From the NCBI GenBank assembly GCA_938092065.1, contig CALKND010000007.1:1-64000 (forward strand): 64,000 nucleotides of DNA. The letters run 5' to 3'. This document shows positions 915 through 8,113 of this stretch, piece by piece. Position 1 is the first letter of the stretch. Each line of letters starts with the position of its first letter. The stretch is from an uncultured Rhodospirillales bacterium (GTDB lineage: Bacteria; Pseudomonadota; Alphaproteobacteria; Rhodospirillales; JABHCV01). The translations under genes were made by a program, and so were the position numbers. The notes below the pieces were generated by a model. That model ran no database searches and had not been told where the DNA came from. It saw only the letters and a list, made by a program, of their open reading frames with translations.

Positions 915-1292
915 ATGGAAATTAATTGGTCAGTCATTGCTATAATGGCTCTCGCTATTTTCAATGGTTTAATCACTTCGATACTTCTGGAAACTGTCAT
1001 TCTCAGCAAACAGTTTGGCCTAGGAAATGCCTTTCGAACAGTAATTGGAATGTCTTTCATATCAATGGTTGCGATGGATTCTGCTATGAATGTGATAGAC
1101 GTCTTTTTTACTGGTGGCGCGGTTTTAACTTGGTAGGTCATTTCAATGATGTTGGCAGCTGGTTTCGTTACCCCACTTCCATTCAATTACTGGCAACTCA
1201 AAGCCCGGGGTAAGAGTTACCATAAATCAAATAAATACTGCTTTTTAACTAGCCTTCAGCTTAGAGATTATCTTGGCAGTGTTTCAGGATAA
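915..1292 (+). pseudogene. DUF4396-like small membrane protein interrupted by in-frame TAG (1134-1136)
   Basis: MEINWSVIAIMALAIFNGLITSILLETVILSKQFGLGNAFRTVIGMSFISMVAMDSAMNVIDVFFTGGAVLTW* then, same frame, VISMMLAAGFVTPLPFNYWQLKARGKSYH; the AGF..PLP.NYW.LK..GK..H tail is typical of this family. Confidence 0.65.
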
Positions 1293-1324: not shown

Positions 1325-1621
1325 TTATTCAGAACCACCTTTGTTTGTCGGTTCTAAAAACGGGCTTTTATGACCAGCAAGCACATCCCTGAGCGCATTT
1401 TGCAGCCAAATCATCATTTCTGGATCGAGTTGCTCACCCTTTGGCTCGTCAGAAAGTAACAGATTAGGGACCCCTTGGGTCCTGAGCCAAATAATATGAT
1501 CGTCTACAGCCTCACAAAAACCCTCTTGCAACTCTCTAATGAGTTCAGGATCATAATCTTTTATTTCGTTTAATTCAGTCATTGCACTAATGAACTTGAT
1601 TCGCCCATGATTATAAGTCAT
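1325..1621 (-). CDS. Hypothetical protein (98 aa)
   Basis: ORF directly downstream of HTH gene, same strand. Confidence 0.45.
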   Translation of the reverse strand: MTYNHGRIKFISAMTELNEIKDYDPELIRELQEGFCEAVDDHIIWLRTQGVPNLLLSDEPKGEQLDPEMMIWLQNALRDVLAGHKSPFLEPTNKGGSE

Positions 1622-1622
1622 T

Positions 1623-1928
1623 TCAGCCTCCCCTCATTAAAAGCGAATTAAGATTTTTCTTAAGTGAGAAATTTTTTCTATACATCTCGCCATGGATTTC
1701 TAAAAGAGACCTAATACTGTATGGGTCAGGTGTCTCCTTTGGGTCATGACATCTAACGTGTTTAAATTTTGGATCTTGTTCCCATTTCTGAACACAGGAA
1801 ACACTAACCCCATACGATAGGGCGATAGTTTTTACTGGATCTGGATCTATAATAAGTTTTTTTTCTACGCAGTATCGATAAAATACTGCATCTTCTATTA
1901 ACTTTTTTTGAAGGGTGTTTTGTGGCAT
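1623..1928 (-). CDS. Helix-turn-helix-like protein (101 aa)
   Basis: Segment KTIALSYGVSVSCVQKWEQDPKF resembles an HTH motif. Confidence 0.45.
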   Translation of the reverse strand: MPQNTLQKKLIEDAVFYRYCVEKKLIIDPDPVKTIALSYGVSVSCVQKWEQDPKFKHVRCHDPKETPDPYSIRSLLEIHGEMYRKNFSLKKNLNSLLMRGG

Positions 1929-2002: not shown

Positions 2003-2707
2003 TCAACTGCCATCTGATAAATTACTTTTGGTATTGAGTCCTTGTCGATAGAGCCCAATTAAGCGAGACATCTCAGTGTAGGAAAGCGGATTGTCCATTG
2101 CTGTTAGTGAGTCACCCTTGACACCAATAAACAAACGTGCCGCTAATTCATTTTTTCCAACTTCTTTTGCCATTTGAAACAAATTCCAAGCTGGGCGCTC
2201 AATATTTATTTCACGATGGCTATCCGCATTATTGGCATGACACCCTGAACAAAACTTCTCATGCAAAGCTTCAGCTTTTATTCTAGAACCCTTCGTCTTG
2301 TTAATTGGAAAAATATTTTTTGGTTCAAATGGAAAAACACTCAACAGTTCATCAACCCAAAATGCTGCTTCGCTGAAATTTTTATCGACAAGAGCTCGTT
2401 GAAGTGCACCTACAGAATTTTCTGGGGGTAATGGCAAAGCGGAATTGTTTTCACGTGCTGTGCGAATTAACAATGAAAGTGGTGCACTTGCTCCAAGCAG
2501 CCTGTCCTTGAGACCTTTTTGGATAAGAGGAAGACTGCTAAATTCACCCATTCGCCTTAGGTCACCTTTCATTACAACTATTTCGGCTGCTAATCTGTTT
2601 TCCGCTACGCTAGTTGCATTAGAAACGGAAGCAGAAAAGGTGACCCAAGTAAGAAGAAGCCCTACCCAAGCCACCAAATTTCTACAGACGATCCTATAAA
2701 AGATCAT
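2003..2707 (-). CDS. Periplasmic c-type cytochrome domain protein
   Basis: N-terminal signal-like segment, heme motif CSGCH, later Met in AMDNP. Confidence 0.65.
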   Translation of the reverse strand: MIFYRIVCRNLVAWVGLLLTWVTFSASVSNATSVAENRLAAEIVVMKGDLRRMGEFSSLPLIQKGLKDRLLGASAPLSLLIRTARENNSALPLPPENSVGALQRALVDKNFSEAAFWVDELLSVFPFEPKNIFPINKTKGSRIKAEALHEKFCSGCHANNADSHREINIERPAWNLFQMAKEVGKNELAARLFIGVKGDSLTAMDNPLSYTEMSRLIGLYRQGLNTKSNLSDGS

Positions 2708-2733
2708 GCCTTAAAGCTCTCAAGTCTTACTTA

Positions 2734-3684
2734 TTAGTTTATCTTCGCTGTCTCTTTCATCGGCAAACCTTTATCAGCCGACCATTCAGCCATAGAACCA
2801 TCGTACATTTTTGCGCCTTTGTTTCCAAGAATTTCGTGTGAGACAAACCAACCTAAGGAAGCCCAGTGACCCGTGTTGCAAAAGTTTATCTGCGAGCCTT
2901 TTGTTGGTATGCTTGCGTATGTATATAATTTATTTAATCTGGCCGGGCTGCTGAACATTCCACCACCATTTTTTGTAAGCCAGTTCTCAGGAAGACTCTT
3001 AGAATTGGGAATAGTTCCAAAACGGGTTGCCTTTGGATGTTTATTAATGCCGATGAATTGGTTGTGAGGTCGATTATCAACTAATACCCCACCAGCTTGA
3101 GAAGCTTTACTCACCTCTTCTTTATTAATAATCATAGCTTTTTGAATGCTACCCTTAAAGCTCTTAGGGGTCACCTTAACCATTCCCTTCTGGAGAGGAT
3201 TTACAGGCTTCTTAGTCTTCACATCTATTTCTGCTAGATAAGCCACCATGCCACCATTTAGGATGGAGACCTCTTCATGGCCTAGAACCTTGAGTGTCCA
3301 ATATATGCGTGTTGCTGTGCCAACATCTAGCGCTTTTCCACCACCAGGAATAATGACGACATGGTCATTATTCCCAATTCCAAGACCTCCAATAAGTTTT
3401 TCAAGTTTGGTCACCGTTGGTAGCATACCAACTATTTTATCTTTATTGGCAACTCTCCAACCACCCATTAAATAGTCTGTCCAAACAGCACCAGGAATAT
3501 GGCCACGCAGGTAATCTGCCTTAGTCTTCCCCGCAAGTGGGCCACGCACATCAAGAAAAACAACACCCTCTTTTCCAAGATTATTTTTCACCCAGTCCAC
3601 TGATACAAGTGGTGACGCCGCCTGAGCTAGACTACCTGTAAATAATAAACAAGATAATATAATTAAAATATATAATTTATTCAT
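2734..3684 (-). CDS. Exported two-domain rhodanese (sulfurtransferase)
   Basis: Signal peptide (LYILIILSCLLFTGSLAQAA); FLDVRGP...GHIPGAVWTDY; active-site loop NFCNTGHWAS; MYDGSMAEWS. Confidence 0.85.
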   Translation of the reverse strand: MNKLYILIILSCLLFTGSLAQAASPLVSVDWVKNNLGKEGVVFLDVRGPLAGKTKADYLRGHIPGAVWTDYLMGGWRVANKDKIVGMLPTVTKLEKLIGGLGIGNNDHVVIIPGGGKALDVGTATRIYWTLKVLGHEEVSILNGGMVAYLAEIDVKTKKPVNPLQKGMVKVTPKSFKGSIQKAMIINKEEVSKASQAGGVLVDNRPHNQFIGINKHPKATRFGTIPNSKSLPENWLTKNGGGMFSSPARLNKLYTYASIPTKGSQINFCNTGHWASLGWFVSHEILGNKGAKMYDGSMAEWSADKGLPMKETAKIN

Positions 3685-3739
3685 TGTAAATTCCTCTCAA
3701 TTGTTAAATTTTTTATAGTTTTTTTATTAAACCCGCTTA

Positions 3740-3925
3740 TCAGACAGTAATAGTCAGGTCGGCTGCGAGAATTGCCGTCACGATCGAATCCCAATCGTTA
3801 TCGTCTAGAGTTTTCCTTCCTATATCGATTCTTGTTACCTTGTGTTCTTTTTCAAGTAAATCGATAGAAGCAACTACAGTGTCGCAGTCTGGGAATAAAT
3901 TGGTATCAAGCTGCAATATTTTCAT
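3740..3925 (-). CDS. Small protein of unknown function (61 aa) in the sulfur operon
   Basis: Compact ORF between rhodanese and DsrE-like genes, same strand. Confidence 0.5.
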   Translation of the reverse strand: MKILQLDTNLFPDCDTVVASIDLLEKEHKVTRIDIGRKTLDDNDWDSIVTAILAADLTITV

Positions 3926-3937
3926 ATTTTCTTCACC

Positions 3938-4216
3938 TCAAACATTAATAATGCTATCTGAATTAAAAATTGCATTTGCTAAATCCTTAGCATTAAGAAA
4001 ATTTAGATCCTTTGCCATACTAGGTACTGTAGTTTCAGGAACTATGTCAGAAAGATCGAGGAGTTCGGCTTGCAATTCATTTTCAACTGTTTCTTGGACA
4101 GACTTAGTCATAAACACCAAACGAATTTTATGTCCAGCTACCGTTAACCCTGCAGCAACTCGCATGGCTTCAGTGTGGTCTCTTCTTCCTAAGACAAGTA
4201 TTTTCTTTATTCCCAA
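3938..4216 (-). CDS. DsrE/F-like protein
   Basis: 92 aa; MGIKKILVLGRRDHTEAMRVAAGLTVAGHKIRLVFMTKSV resembles the DsrE/F fold N-terminus. Confidence 0.5.
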   Translation of the reverse strand: MGIKKILVLGRRDHTEAMRVAAGLTVAGHKIRLVFMTKSVQETVENELQAELLDLSDIVPETTVPSMAKDLNFLNAKDLANAIFNSDSIINV

Positions 4217-4235
4217 ATTTCCAGTGCTCCTTAAC

Positions 4236-4529
4236 TTACAAGCTAATCACGCGACTAATTTCAGTCATCATTGAGCTATTAATTGTCTGGCTGCCCATTT
4301 CAACGGGGCAATGCGCTCCATCACTTAGAATGTCCCAAGAGTGTTCACACACGACTGCTCTTTTGGCTAATTTAACAACTTCTTGACAAGCGGTGTCTTT
4401 AATAAGTTCGACGCCGTCATTGGTAAAAAAGCAGCCCCAATTTACACCTGCACGTGATAATCCCTGCATCAACTGTACTGCTATTCTGCCACTATTACGC
4501 GTCGTAATTACCAGTAATGCATCCATCAT
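4236..4529 (-). CDS. DsrE-like protein (start trimmed to the ATGA overlap with upstream gene)
   Basis: MMDALLVITTRNSGRIAVQLMQGLSRAGVNWGCFFTNDGVELIKD; ATG at 4529 overlaps the TGA of the rhodanese ORF at 4526-4528. Confidence 0.55.
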   Translation of the reverse strand: MMDALLVITTRNSGRIAVQLMQGLSRAGVNWGCFFTNDGVELIKDTACQEVVKLAKRAVVCEHSWDILSDGAHCPVEMGSQTINSSMMTEISRVISL

Positions 4530-5563
4530 TTTTGACCCCGGCGCTGTATAAGAAAGAAAAAAAGTGTGGCAATTGCCATTCCAATTAGAAAAGCCATTCC
4601 AAATAGTATCCAATTATGTTCTGTGGGATTAGTCACTTGAGGGAATTTTGTCTCCATTCCTCTGTCAGGATATGTTACAGCATCAACGGGCATATTACTG
4701 TCGGCAGACCACTCTGCCCAGCCTCCTGGGTAGACGCGAGCTTCAATATTAAATCCTGCCCGTAAAAGCGTTAACATAGCTAATCCCTCAAAAGCATTAT
4801 GCCCGTAAATAATTGTATCGTGCTTTTCCAATTCAGTGACCTCGCCTGATGTAGCAAGAGAGCGGAGGCGGCCAGAAGACAAATGCCTTGCACCGACAAT
4901 ATGGCCCCCGCGAAACCCTCGAACAGAAGCACCCCAGAACTCTCTCTCACTTCGGCCATCAATAAGGGCCGTCGGTATATTGAAATCAAGAATCCTAGCA
5001 AGTTCGTTTTTAAAAATTACTGCTTTGTCACGGGCAATCCCATGATAAACATTCGTACGGGTTTCCATACGTTCAACACCTGAACCCAGAGAATTGTCTG
5101 AAAATCCACCCCCACGACTCATTTGCCGGGTCAAGACAGAAATTTCTTTTTGGCCCACAACAAACAGAACCCCCGCAATAAAGTCGCGTTCCTGCGCTTT
5201 ATCTCCCACGACAAGTATGTGCTCCTGGCCAATTAAACCAACCGTACCCAACAACCAGTTTATATTTTCAAAACTTGCAAGGCGACCGTGCGGCCCAAAA
5301 AAATCAGCGACTGGCAAGCACCGCGCATCACGGACACTTTGTTTTAAGCATTGTTGAAGTGGTCTGGCATCTATGACGTGAGCTCCTTGTTTTAATACTT
5401 CTTCACCATCAGTCACAAATTTGTAATTTGATCCTGCCAAGACCGTCCCTTTTGAACCCAAAAACAAAAGAGATGCCAACAAAAGAGAAATGAATGTGGT
5501 TCGAAAAAAAATTTCCGGACTCCTTTGTTCCCTAACAACCTTGAATACGAACTTTTCTAACAC
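4526..5563 (-). CDS. Membrane-anchored rhodanese-like protein lacking the catalytic cysteine
   Basis: VIDARPLQQC..., ALIDGRSEREFWGASVRGFRGGHIVGARHL, VYPGGWAEWSAD; position of active-site Cys reads IIYGHNAFEG; C-terminal TM NWILFGMAFLIGMAIATLFFFLIQRR. Confidence 0.7.
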   Translation of the reverse strand: MLEKFVFKVVREQRSPEIFFRTTFISLLLASLLFLGSKGTVLAGSNYKFVTDGEEVLKQGAHVIDARPLQQCLKQSVRDARCLPVADFFGPHGRLASFENINWLLGTVGLIGQEHILVVGDKAQERDFIAGVLFVVGQKEISVLTRQMSRGGGFSDNSLGSGVERMETRTNVYHGIARDKAVIFKNELARILDFNIPTALIDGRSEREFWGASVRGFRGGHIVGARHLSSGRLRSLATSGEVTELEKHDTIIYGHNAFEGLAMLTLLRAGFNIEARVYPGGWAEWSADSNMPVDAVTYPDRGMETKFPQVTNPTEHNWILFGMAFLIGMAIATLFFFLIQRRGQK

Positions 5564-5801
5564 TCTCTTCTGCTGATTCAGATGTCACTGGAGGATTCTC
5601 AATAAAATAATCGAGTAAATCAGAAACTGAAACGATTCCAAAGTCTCCAAGATCAATATCTGGAATTATCTCAGCATCAACACTTTCATTGGTCCTCATA
5701 ACCTTCTCAACAGAAAGGGCTGCGTAAGGGTATCCCAAAGCAGCTAAACCCAAAGCTACAATTAGAGAAAAAGCGCAAAAGATAAGACTAATACGATCCA
5801 A
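5532..5801 (-). CDS. Small membrane-anchored protein (89 aa)
   Basis: N-terminal TM segment; overlaps next gene start. Confidence 0.5.
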   Translation of the reverse strand: MDRISLIFCAFSLIVALGLAALGYPYAALSVEKVMRTNESVDAEIIPDIDLGDFGIVSVSDLLDYFIENPPVTSESAEESVRKVRIQGC

Positions 5802-5814
5802 AAATGTTTCTCCC

Positions 5815-5907
5815 CTAAAGTGAGTCTCTAAGAAAACTTACATACATAGCGCCAAAGGCAAGAACAAAAAAAACAATGTGGGCAATAGTTTCAAAGTCTA
5901 AACTCAT
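5815..5907 (-). CDS. 30-aa single-TM microprotein MSLDFETIAHIVFFVLAFGAMYVSFLRDSL
   Basis: Manual reverse-strand translation, ATG to TAG, fills the gap between two operon genes; too short for the ORF track. Confidence 0.45.
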   Translation of the reverse strand: MSLDFETIAHIVFFVLAFGAMYVSFLRDSL

Positions 5908-5910
5908 ACT

Positions 5911-6117
5911 TTATTCTCCCTTGAAGTGGCGCACTAACATATTAACATCAAGAGCCTTTCCTGTTTCGGGATGCATAACAGAAGGTGTGAAAAAAGGTAC
6001 GCCATTCTTACTCATGCGAGAGCTTTTGGGTGGAAAGGCATAGACATAAAGTAAAATAATAAGGCTCAACACTGTTATAGCGCAGACGAAAGTCCGCATA
6101 ATTATGTAGTAGAACAT
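5911..6117 (-). CDS. Small membrane-anchored protein (68 aa)
   Basis: N-terminal TM; operon position. Confidence 0.5.
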   Translation of the reverse strand: MFYYIIMRTFVCAITVLSLIILLYVYAFPPKSSRMSKNGVPFFTPSVMHPETGKALDVNMLVRHFKGE

Positions 6118-6132
6118 TGCTAAAGCTTCCGT

Positions 6133-6441
6133 TTAATTTTTAATCACATAAACTTCCCAATAACGCGTAGCTTTTATAGTCTCCAAATGGGATGAATTTA
6201 GATCATTCAACATTGGTGGTATGGCTTCAACTGAAGAAGGGTTATCAATAAGCACTTCAACAACATCCCCACTTGCGCAATCAGCTAGGGCTTTTTTTGT
6301 CATTAATTGAGGACGGGGGCAAGAATCTCCAATGCAATCAATCTTCTTCGCAATATTATATATTTTTCCATCACTAAGCGCGACCTCGCCACCTGCTATT
6401 TCCCTCTCTTCTTGTTTCTTTCCTGAACCAAAAATACCCAT
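6133..6441 (-). CDS. TusA/SirA-family sulfur carrier protein
   Basis: DCIGDSCPRPQLMTKKALADCASGDVVEVLIDNPSSVEAIP: TusA-type CPxP motif. Confidence 0.85.
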   Translation of the reverse strand: MGIFGSGKKQEEREIAGGEVALSDGKIYNIAKKIDCIGDSCPRPQLMTKKALADCASGDVVEVLIDNPSSVEAIPPMLNDLNSSHLETIKATRYWEVYVIKN

Positions 6442-6506
6442 TAATACCTACCTCCATTATATATTGTGCAACTTATTTACTAGATTCAAGTATCCACTTG
6501 AATTTA

Positions 6507-7121
6507 TTATTGAGAAGCGGCGACATTATCAATTTTCTGCCTTTTTTCCCTACGGACAATTGCACGGTATATTGCGAACAGAACCAAAGTTTGCAGCATT
6601 CCAAAAACGACAGCGGGCACTCCATATTTATCCTGCAATGTTCCAGCATTGCTGTATCCTAACTGTAAGGCCTCAAAGTTGGGGTCCCCCGTCATGCTGG
6701 CCCCAGTGGGTGGCCAGTAATTAATTGACCAGAGCAAAGAAAACAAGAACATGCCAATAAATGTAAAAAGCAAAGCCCACAAGGCGCCAACGTTCCCCTC
6801 TCCTGTTTTGACCCAAGTCGAAACGGTGCAGGCCCCAGCTAAAACCATGCCTATACCAAATAAAAACAGCCCAACAATCTGATTTAATCCAACATCAAAT
6901 TTCATCGGGTTGCCTTCACCAATGGTGATGAATGTAGTGAACCCCATTGTCAGTATCATCATTGCCATTAACAATGCCTTGGTATTACGAAAGGTCTTGA
7001 ACAACATGGCATCACGCAAGGCTGCAGTATTACAAAAACGAGAACGTTGAACCAAAAGGCCAACGATAGACCCAAAAACAAAAGCAACAAGTATTTCGCC
7101 TACTACAGTATCCAAAACCAA
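6507..7121 (-). CDS. YeeE/YedE-family transporter, half corresponding to the N-terminal part of E. coli YeeE (TTG start)
   Basis: GLLVQRSRFCNTAALRDAMLF ... GIGMVLAGACTVSTWVKTGEGNVGALWALLF. Confidence 0.8.
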   Translation of the reverse strand: MVLDTVVGEILVAFVFGSIVGLLVQRSRFCNTAALRDAMLFKTFRNTKALLMAMMILTMGFTTFITIGEGNPMKFDVGLNQIVGLFLFGIGMVLAGACTVSTWVKTGEGNVGALWALLFTFIGMFLFSLLWSINYWPPTGASMTGDPNFEALQLGYSNAGTLQDKYGVPAVVFGMLQTLVLFAIYRAIVRREKRQKIDNVAASQ

Positions 7122-7613
7122 TTAGCCTTCTAAGATTTTTTTATAAATCATGGAACCAACCCAAGCGCCGGCAATTATGCCCGACATTGACAAATAGCCA
7201 CCAAGGTTCATTTCTGGTGTTAAACCGAAAAAGGTGGAAACGTTGCAGACAAATGCCATGCGGATACCAATTCCCATCAGCAGTCCACCAATTGTTATCA
7301 AGACCCACTCTGAAAGACGGCGCGGAAAACGAATAAAAAATTCTTTACTAAGAATAGCACCAACAAAGGCACCAAATAACATGCCAAGACTAATATAAAT
7401 TTTCCAATAACCGGCATCTGGCGTAAAAACTAGAGACCAAAAGGGAATACGATTAAGATCATCACCCATAAAAAATTGCGCTATAATTCCTGTCATCATT
7501 GTTTCGCCACCACCGACAGTCCAAGCGCCAAGAAGCAAAAACATAAATACATCAAGCACAGCAATAGCAGAGAGAGCTATGACTGGATCCAAAGATTTCT
7601 TAAAAAAATCCAT
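7122..7613 (-). CDS. YeeE/YedE-family transporter, half corresponding to the C-terminal part of E. coli YeeE
   Basis: GMLFGAFVGAILSKEFFIRFPRR...GGLLMGIGIRMAFVCNVSTFFG. Confidence 0.75.
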   Translation of the reverse strand: MDFFKKSLDPVIALSAIAVLDVFMFLLLGAWTVGGGETMMTGIIAQFFMGDDLNRIPFWSLVFTPDAGYWKIYISLGMLFGAFVGAILSKEFFIRFPRRLSEWVLITIGGLLMGIGIRMAFVCNVSTFFGLTPEMNLGGYLSMSGIIAGAWVGSMIYKKILEG

Positions 7614-7813
7614 TCTCTCTTTCCTGTTTGAACACTAAAAGATCATCGTAACGAATGAAGTGCCTTAGTGGTGGTATTTATTGCTATTATTTAATTTTTA
7701 AAATTATATCTTCAGAAACTGCTCGTTGTTCTAAATTCTTAAAATAAGCATCAAGAGCATCTACACGAACTACTTACAAGAAGACGGCATAAAAACAGAA
7801 AGGTTGAAAGCCT

Positions 7814-8113
7814 ATGTCAATTTTTATCGAAACAGATGATTTTCTTGACCATATGTTCACTGCTTGCACGACTGATCAAATCAATGAATTCATTCCACAA
7901 AAAAAAGGGTTTCGCATTCATGGTCACAGCACGACAATACGTCTTGAGCAGGCTTTTTGGAATGTACTTGAGTGGATGGCTGCTAATAGAAATGTATCCC
8001 TTGCAGTTTTAATTGAAAATATTCATGACCAATGCTTGGTCGCTAATGACAAGAACTTAGCTTCTTGCCTACGGGTAATCTGTCTTAAATATATTAATAT
8101 CTATTCAGACTAG
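7814..8113 (+). CDS. Ribbon-helix-helix domain protein, divergent from the sulfur operon
   Basis: FRIHGHSTTIRLEQAFWNVLEWMAANRNVSLAVLIENIHDQ. Confidence 0.65.
   Translation: MSIFIETDDFLDHMFTACTTDQINEFIPQKKGFRIHGHSTTIRLEQAFWNVLEWMAANRNVSLAVLIENIHDQCLVANDKNLASCLRVICLKYINIYSD

Follow-up and report, generated by a model that had tools for sequence, protein, structure and literature searches.

Periplasmic sulfane sulfur reaches the cytoplasm by unknown means, and sulfur import is poorly understood (PMC11582611). Here we ask whether a group of twelve genes from an uncultured Rhodospirillales bacterium serves this step. The genes occupy positions 7613-2003 on the minus strand of a 64,000-nucleotide stretch (assembly GCA_938092065.1, contig CALKND010000007.1, positions 1 to 64,000), which is called the window below and lies on contig C7 of a 37-contig, 2.07 Mb genome with a completeness of 90.65%. 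In order they are named yeeA, yeeB, tusA, m68, m30, m89, rhdX, dsrE1, dsrE2, u61, rhd2 and cyt. We found that this operon is real and strictly conserved. From protein families, conserved cysteines and co-occurrence, on which our functional reading rests, it is probably devoted to importing and relaying sulfur in bacteria that have reverse-Dsr alongside a Sox system left incomplete by the lack of SoxCD.

Results

The twelve-gene order recurs across Proteobacteria

A preliminary description of the window had reported about 12 packed minus-strand genes, and reading of the window sequence confirmed 12 open reading frames (ORFs) arranged head to tail, with intergenic gaps, from yeeA to cyt, of 0, 65, 15, 3, 13, −32, −4, 19, 12, 55 and 26 bp. 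That description also allowed that the genes might not co-occur elsewhere; a check of gene neighbourhoods revealed strict co-occurrence. The first search, with the rhdX protein against 60 related genomes, yielded four orthologues, three of them clear and one truncated. The four loci share the gene order; one contig begins inside yeeA, and its 61-aa gene was detected only later (43% identity). In the second search a dsrE2 alignment was scanned against genome contigs and 36 loci outside the window were obtained, three of which (L027, L039 and L052) belong to genomes already met in the rhdX search. All 12 genes were present in order in 27 of the 36 loci, from Alpha-, Beta- and Gammaproteobacteria, while six loci were cut by contig ends and three were variants (L054, L056 and L057) with rhd2 absent from its usual place. 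Even the 30-aa peptide m30 is retained across loci. That unrelated genes came together by chance was ruled out by the 27 complete, identically ordered copies. In L054 and L056 a diverged rhodanese lies upstream on the opposite strand. The hosts include Magnetovibrio blakemorei MV-1, Rhodobium orientis, Maritimibacter, Marimonas, Sinisalibacter, a Rhodocyclaceae metagenome-assembled genome (MAG), Thiorhodococcus mannitoliphagus and Sedimenticola selenatireducens.

Operon hosts carry dsr and sox genes

The gene dsrA was found in 33/37 operon hosts, the window's genome included (31 above the curated cut-off and two strong partial matches), and a short dsrA fragment occurs in one more; every host lacking dsrA is a MAG. 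In Alphaproteobacteria, sampled evenly across the class (window's genome excluded), only 5/384 genomes carry dsrA, so that the enrichment in the hosts (32/36, window's genome again excluded) is strong (Fisher p ~2e-38). soxB was present in 33/37 hosts and a true soxC in 1/37. Dsr loci were read in 18 host genomes; in 17 of them, the window's included, dsrAB is followed by canonical dsrEFHC. The exception, L079, is at a contig end, and L072 and L074 in the same table are second dsrA copies. Because dsrA, soxB and canonical dsrEFHC are present and soxC is nearly absent, we take the hosts to combine Sox with reverse-Dsr, so that SoxY-bound sulfur would have to reach the cytoplasm.

The window had been described as free of sox and dsrAB genes, and the operon as neither sox nor canonical dsr. 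Both statements are right, and both systems are encoded on other contigs of the same genome: canonical dsrABEFHCM lies outside the window, with dsrAB at G000:C9:2469-4758, and soxXYZAB lies on G000:C2 with a full-length YeeE adjoining. DsrE2, not to be confused with the operon gene here called dsrE2, is clear in 35/37 hosts, and no clear DsrE2 was found in the window's genome.

In the class sample few alphaproteobacteria have the operon. It is uncommon among dsrA-positive organisms too, occurring in 7/77 genomes of the family of Thiorhodococcus, Thiorhodococcus itself counted. In a phylum sample with 53 dsrA genomes it was present in the window's genome and in one other, also dsrA-positive, whose copy, as far as it was read, shows the identical gene series. 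Operon and dsrAB distances are correlated (Mantel r 0.54, 0/5000 permutations); some hosts have two dsrA copies, which may blur this comparison.

Transporter halves and small membrane proteins

Pfam or NCBIfam matches were obtained for 5/12 proteins, namely both YeeE halves (PF04143), TusA (PF01206) and two rhodaneses (PF00581), in agreement with the families first assigned; the other seven, including the cytochrome and the DsrE-like trio, gave no significant Pfam or NCBIfam match. The yeeA product (7122..7613, minus strand as all twelve genes; 163 aa) is the C-terminal half of a YeeE/YedE transporter (PmpA-like; PF04143 profile positions 172-310), and that of yeeB (6507..7121, TTG start, 204 aa) the N-terminal half (PmpB-like; profile 1-156). 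Both matches are above the PF04143 cut-off, and the cysteines are conserved among relatives: Cys123 of YeeA in 24/24, Cys30 and Cys98 of YeeB in 31/32 and 32/32, respectively. YeeA aligns with an offset of +170 to the NCBIfam TsuA model, which places Cys123 at TsuA Cys293, and by these model coordinates Cys30, Cys98 and Cys123 appear to coincide with TsuA positions 22, 91 and 293 or to be no more than one residue off. The TsuA family has three conserved cysteines, of which Cys91 and Cys293 are indispensable (PMC11582611). Residue 10 of YeeB (window 7121-6507) is Ile in the window protein and Cys in 30/32 family sequences. A second, diverged half-YeeE gene pair, 30-33% identical, follows the operon at L039:12318-13319.

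TusA (6133..6441, 102 aa, PF01206 E=4e-17) is a cytoplasmic sulfur carrier with Cys41 in a DSCPRP motif, conserved in 33/33 relatives. Three small membrane proteins follow. The first, m68 (5911..6117, 68 aa), has one transmembrane segment and a conserved tail around HPETG, shows no Pfam match and is 39-60% identical in four relatives, while m30 (5815..5907) is a single-helix peptide of 30 aa present at an unchanged position wherever a locus covers that stretch. The third, m89 (5532..5801, 89 aa), is membrane-anchored with a predicted periplasmic tail and a C-terminal GC; its Cys89, the last residue of the protein, is conserved in 33/33 relatives, usually as GGC at the very C-terminus. When m89 was examined as a SoxY-type carrier, the GC end was found but no SoxY domain bearing a C-terminal GGCGG arm; m89 may still work like such an arm.

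Exported rhodaneses and cytochrome

The rhdX product (4526..5563, start uncertain) is an exported, C-terminally anchored two-domain rhodanese homologue (PF00581 E=5.6e-10, domain 2) that is not a catalytic rhodanese by its residues, with no active-site Cys in the second domain. It had been called Cys-less, which holds for the catalytic loop and not for domain 1, where Cys72 and Cys82 are conserved in 22/23 relatives. In Magnetovibrio (L027) and several Rhodobacteraceae loci the protein is reduced to domain 1 with both conserved cysteines kept, and the second domain seems dispensable. A search for plasmid copies of rhdX found none. Rhd2 (2734..3684, PF00581 E=2.9e-22) is an exported two-domain rhodanese of the catalytic type, with active-site Cys269 (FCNTGH) in the second domain conserved in 33/35 relatives. 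The last gene, cyt (2003..2707), encodes an exported monohaem cytochrome c with CxxCH at residues 153-157; Cys153, Cys156 and His157 are invariant among relatives, and its profile matches c-type cytochromes in the PDB, in line with the first assignment.

A DsrE-fold protein and two small neighbours

Of two proteins originally called DsrE-like, only the first is backed by a fold match. The AlphaFold model of dsrE1 (4236..4529, 97 aa) has a pLDDT of 95.9, and its five best PDB fold matches are all of the DsrE/DsrF/TusBCD type (probability 1.00). Cys61 ends a strand, is followed by a helix and is conserved in 36/36 relatives; Cys33 is conserved in 35/36 and Cys74 in 33/36. The second, dsrE2 (3938..4216, 92 aa), is a cysteine-free cytoplasmic protein with a mean column identity of 72% over 32 sequences and no conserved Cys; it is a candidate DsrF-like subunit by position and by a weak match to the canonical DsrF profile (35% probability), in a low-power test that gives canonical DsrE versus DsrF 0.3%. 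The 61-aa product of u61 (3740..3925) is a candidate DsrH-like subunit by position, with a confident AlphaFold model (pLDDT 96.2) of beta-alpha-beta-alpha-beta fold and no conserved Cys. Foldseek against the PDB gave u61 no specific match, DsrH included. Sequence searches of dsrE1, dsrE2 and u61 against the PDB returned no useful homologue; for u61 the lowest E-values came from helicase and repeat proteins, where no individual stretch passed. On this evidence a DsrEFH-like trimer of the three is plausible, with dsrE2 and u61 as candidate counterparts of DsrF and DsrH by position.

Relation to described sulfur-transfer systems

The closest parallel is the YTD cluster (yeeE-tusA-dsrEFH type II) of sulfate reducers (PMC13293266, PMC13047784), to which the operon core is similar. 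In both, a YeeE-type transporter is found together with TusA and a trio of small cytoplasmic proteins; a DsrE fold and a conserved Cys mark the first of these, and the third lacks the DsrH Cys. In the operon yeeE and tusA genes lie near three dsrE-F-H-like genes, the trio being contiguous and separated from tusA by four genes, and the DsrE-fold subunit has its conserved Cys61. DsrE type II Cys67 accepts sulfur from TusA in vitro (PMC13293266), and Cys61 of dsrE1 is its parallel. The operon differs in that its transporter is split over two genes and that six genes (m68, m30, m89, rhdX, rhd2 and cyt) are not part of YTD as published; u61, given its short length, probably cannot reach the 80-bit cut-off of the published type II models. 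Type II genomes carry reductive dsrAB in 73.9% and oxidative dsrAB in 4.7% of cases (PMC13293266, PMC13047784), whereas operon hosts have dsrAB followed by dsrEFHC, the published oxidative-type arrangement, with the type read from arrangement alone. The arrangement had been noted as unfamiliar; the parallel of its core to YTD was missed then. No published description of the full gene set was found in the literature searched, mostly without subscription papers and without preprints.

SoxT/TsuA and the operon's transporter belong to one Pfam family, and the operon keeps the three TsuA cysteine positions and a TusA-type partner, but it uses two polypeptides in place of one and lies outside the sox cluster. 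In Hyphomicrobium the YeeE-like protein SoxT1A brings in sulfur for oxidation (PMC11582611). Like the short YeeE proteins PmpA and PmpB, yeeA corresponds to the C-half and yeeB to the N-half, respectively; yeeB has two cysteines, PmpB one conserved Cys (PMC11582611), and the operon's proteins are longer and have different gene company. The rhd-tusA-dsrE2 unit of Allochromatium vinosum, which feeds reverse-Dsr (PMC4175335), likewise joins a rhodanese, TusA and a DsrE-type protein, but the rhodaneses of the operon are exported and its dsrE1 is soluble and not a DsrE2. With DsrEFH type I of A. vinosum the trio shares the DsrE fold, three adjacent small proteins and, presumably, feeding by TusA, but apart from the weak dsrE2-DsrF match it showed no similarity to canonical DsrE, DsrF and DsrH in profile comparison, and canonical dsrEFH is encoded separately in the same genomes. 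A replacement for canonical DsrEFH was ruled out, dsrEFH being present in 17/18 hosts with dsr loci read.

Upstream region and flanking genes

Divergent from the operon, a ribbon-helix-helix regulator of 99 aa is encoded on the plus strand at 7814..8113 (PF13467, RHH_4, E=2.1e-22). Its orthologues, 65-84% identical, stand divergently upstream of yeeA in 14 loci of alphaproteobacteria. A putative promoter/operator motif, TTGCAATAAwTACyACCACC, was found in 14 regulator-yeeA intergenic regions, the window's included (7667..7686, minus strand); a degenerate form in L032 was excluded from the matrix. The best window site scores 26.9 bits and the next 14.8, partly by construction since the matrix was built from the same sites, and 376 kb of shuffled control sequence contained 2 matches at 12 bits. 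In the dsr and sox loci read there was no strong site, an absence independent of matrix construction, and a regulon shared with dsr or sox via this motif was rejected. A simple promoter scan gave fewer matches than shuffled sequence and was uninformative. In gammaproteobacterial-type copies (L042, L044, L046, L049 and L050) an NtrC-type response regulator and a histidine kinase take the place of the ribbon-helix-helix regulator upstream of yeeA, and in some also a phosphonate-binding-type periplasmic protein, a possible sulfur-compound sensor.

The cytochrome gene is followed on its strand by a pair of small ORFs (window 1325-1928; 101 and 98 aa) that match no Pfam family and for which relatives show no convincing homologue close to the operon. 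A 73-aa ORF at 915-1136 (+) matches part of DUF4396 (PF14342) and is a possible membrane protein.

Discussion

In the mechanism that we propose, periplasmic sulfane sulfur, donated by SoxY, polysulfide or the like, would be handled by rhd2, rhdX and m89, with the C-terminal Cys of m89 as a swinging arm, and the monohaem cytochrome would accept the electrons of this periplasmic step. YeeA and YeeB would form one YeeE-type channel, with m68 and m30 as accessory membrane subunits, and would pass sulfur inward via their three conserved cysteines. In the cytoplasm, TusA (Cys41) would take the sulfur and give it to dsrE1 (Cys61), probably complexed with dsrE2 and u61, from which it would go to DsrEFH/DsrC and on to DsrAB. 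The conserved cysteines, running from the periplasm across the membrane to the cytoplasm, fit such a relay; the direction of flow, the substrate, complex formation and the roles of the cytochrome and of the C-terminal Cys are what we infer. An import-relay-periplasmic redox module, possibly for thiosulfate or polysulfide, had already been suggested in the preliminary description, and it fits the anatomy and the conserved cysteines; the unit then thought complete also has a divergent regulator and genome-wide dsr and sox partners.

Several results weigh against this proposal. The hosts already have canonical DsrEFH and mostly DsrE2 too, and a second, full-length YeeE lies beside sox in the window's genome, so that the need for the operon may be questioned. 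Most dsrA-positive proteobacteria do without it (0/5 others have it in the class sample and 1/52 others in the phylum sample). Operon and dsrAB trees have 3 of 14 splits in common; the link between the two is thus not strict co-inheritance, and because so few splits are shared, some transfer or differential loss is likely. Furthermore, dsrE2 and u61 are candidates for DsrF and DsrH, and the import role itself is one that we infer from sequence.

The patchy occurrence among dsrA-positive organisms would suit an operon serving one special substrate, such as tetrathionate or an organic persulfide, with the reverse-Dsr link secondary. The regulator, kinase and phosphonate-binding-type protein of the gammaproteobacterial copies suggest a specific signal, and the alphaproteobacterial regulator and motif are private to the operon among the loci read; but no enzyme for a special substrate is recognisable, the recognisable parts are all sulfur-relay proteins and a cytochrome, and we consider this explanation unlikely. 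Flow in the opposite sense, in which YeeAB would export excess cytoplasmic or membrane sulfane sulfur for disposal in the periplasm by the rhodaneses and the cytochrome, appears more improbable still. Sequence does not reveal the direction, TusA and DsrEFH type II exchange sulfur both ways in vitro (PMC13293266), and two periplasmic rhodaneses with a cytochrome suit a periplasmic end point. However, characterised YeeE relatives import (PMC11582611), and the tie to dsrA with absence of soxC fits supply of reverse-Dsr better, since general detoxification would not need dsr. TusA, YeeE and DsrE-type proteins (TusBCD) also serve assimilation, selenium use and thio-modification, and the operon might supply sulfur for these instead of energy metabolism; the NCBIfam selenium YedE/YedF models also give scores, below their cut-offs. 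With an operon that is rare among alphaproteobacteria and tracks dsrA and soxB, not general biosynthesis, we give this very little credence.

We retain the import and relay module as the probable function. A bolder form of it, which we put forward tentatively and with less than even confidence, is an undescribed, self-contained trans-membrane sulfur-relay machine of Sox/reverse-Dsr bacteria, comprising a membrane complex of split YeeE with three small subunits, a periplasmic C-terminal-Cys arm, rhodaneses that load it, an electron-draining cytochrome and a third kind of DsrEFH complex in the cytoplasm, which would be the missing import step from periplasmic sulfur to DsrAB in such bacteria.

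This strictly conserved operon, which follows dsrA and soxB and not soxC, offers concrete gene candidates for sulfane sulfur import: a channel, candidate carriers on both sides of the membrane and an electron acceptor. Its presence in the cultured Magnetovibrio blakemorei MV-1, Rhodobium orientis, Thiorhodococcus mannitoliphagus, Sedimenticola selenatireducens, Maritimibacter, Marimonas and Sinisalibacter makes the operon accessible to experimental tests.

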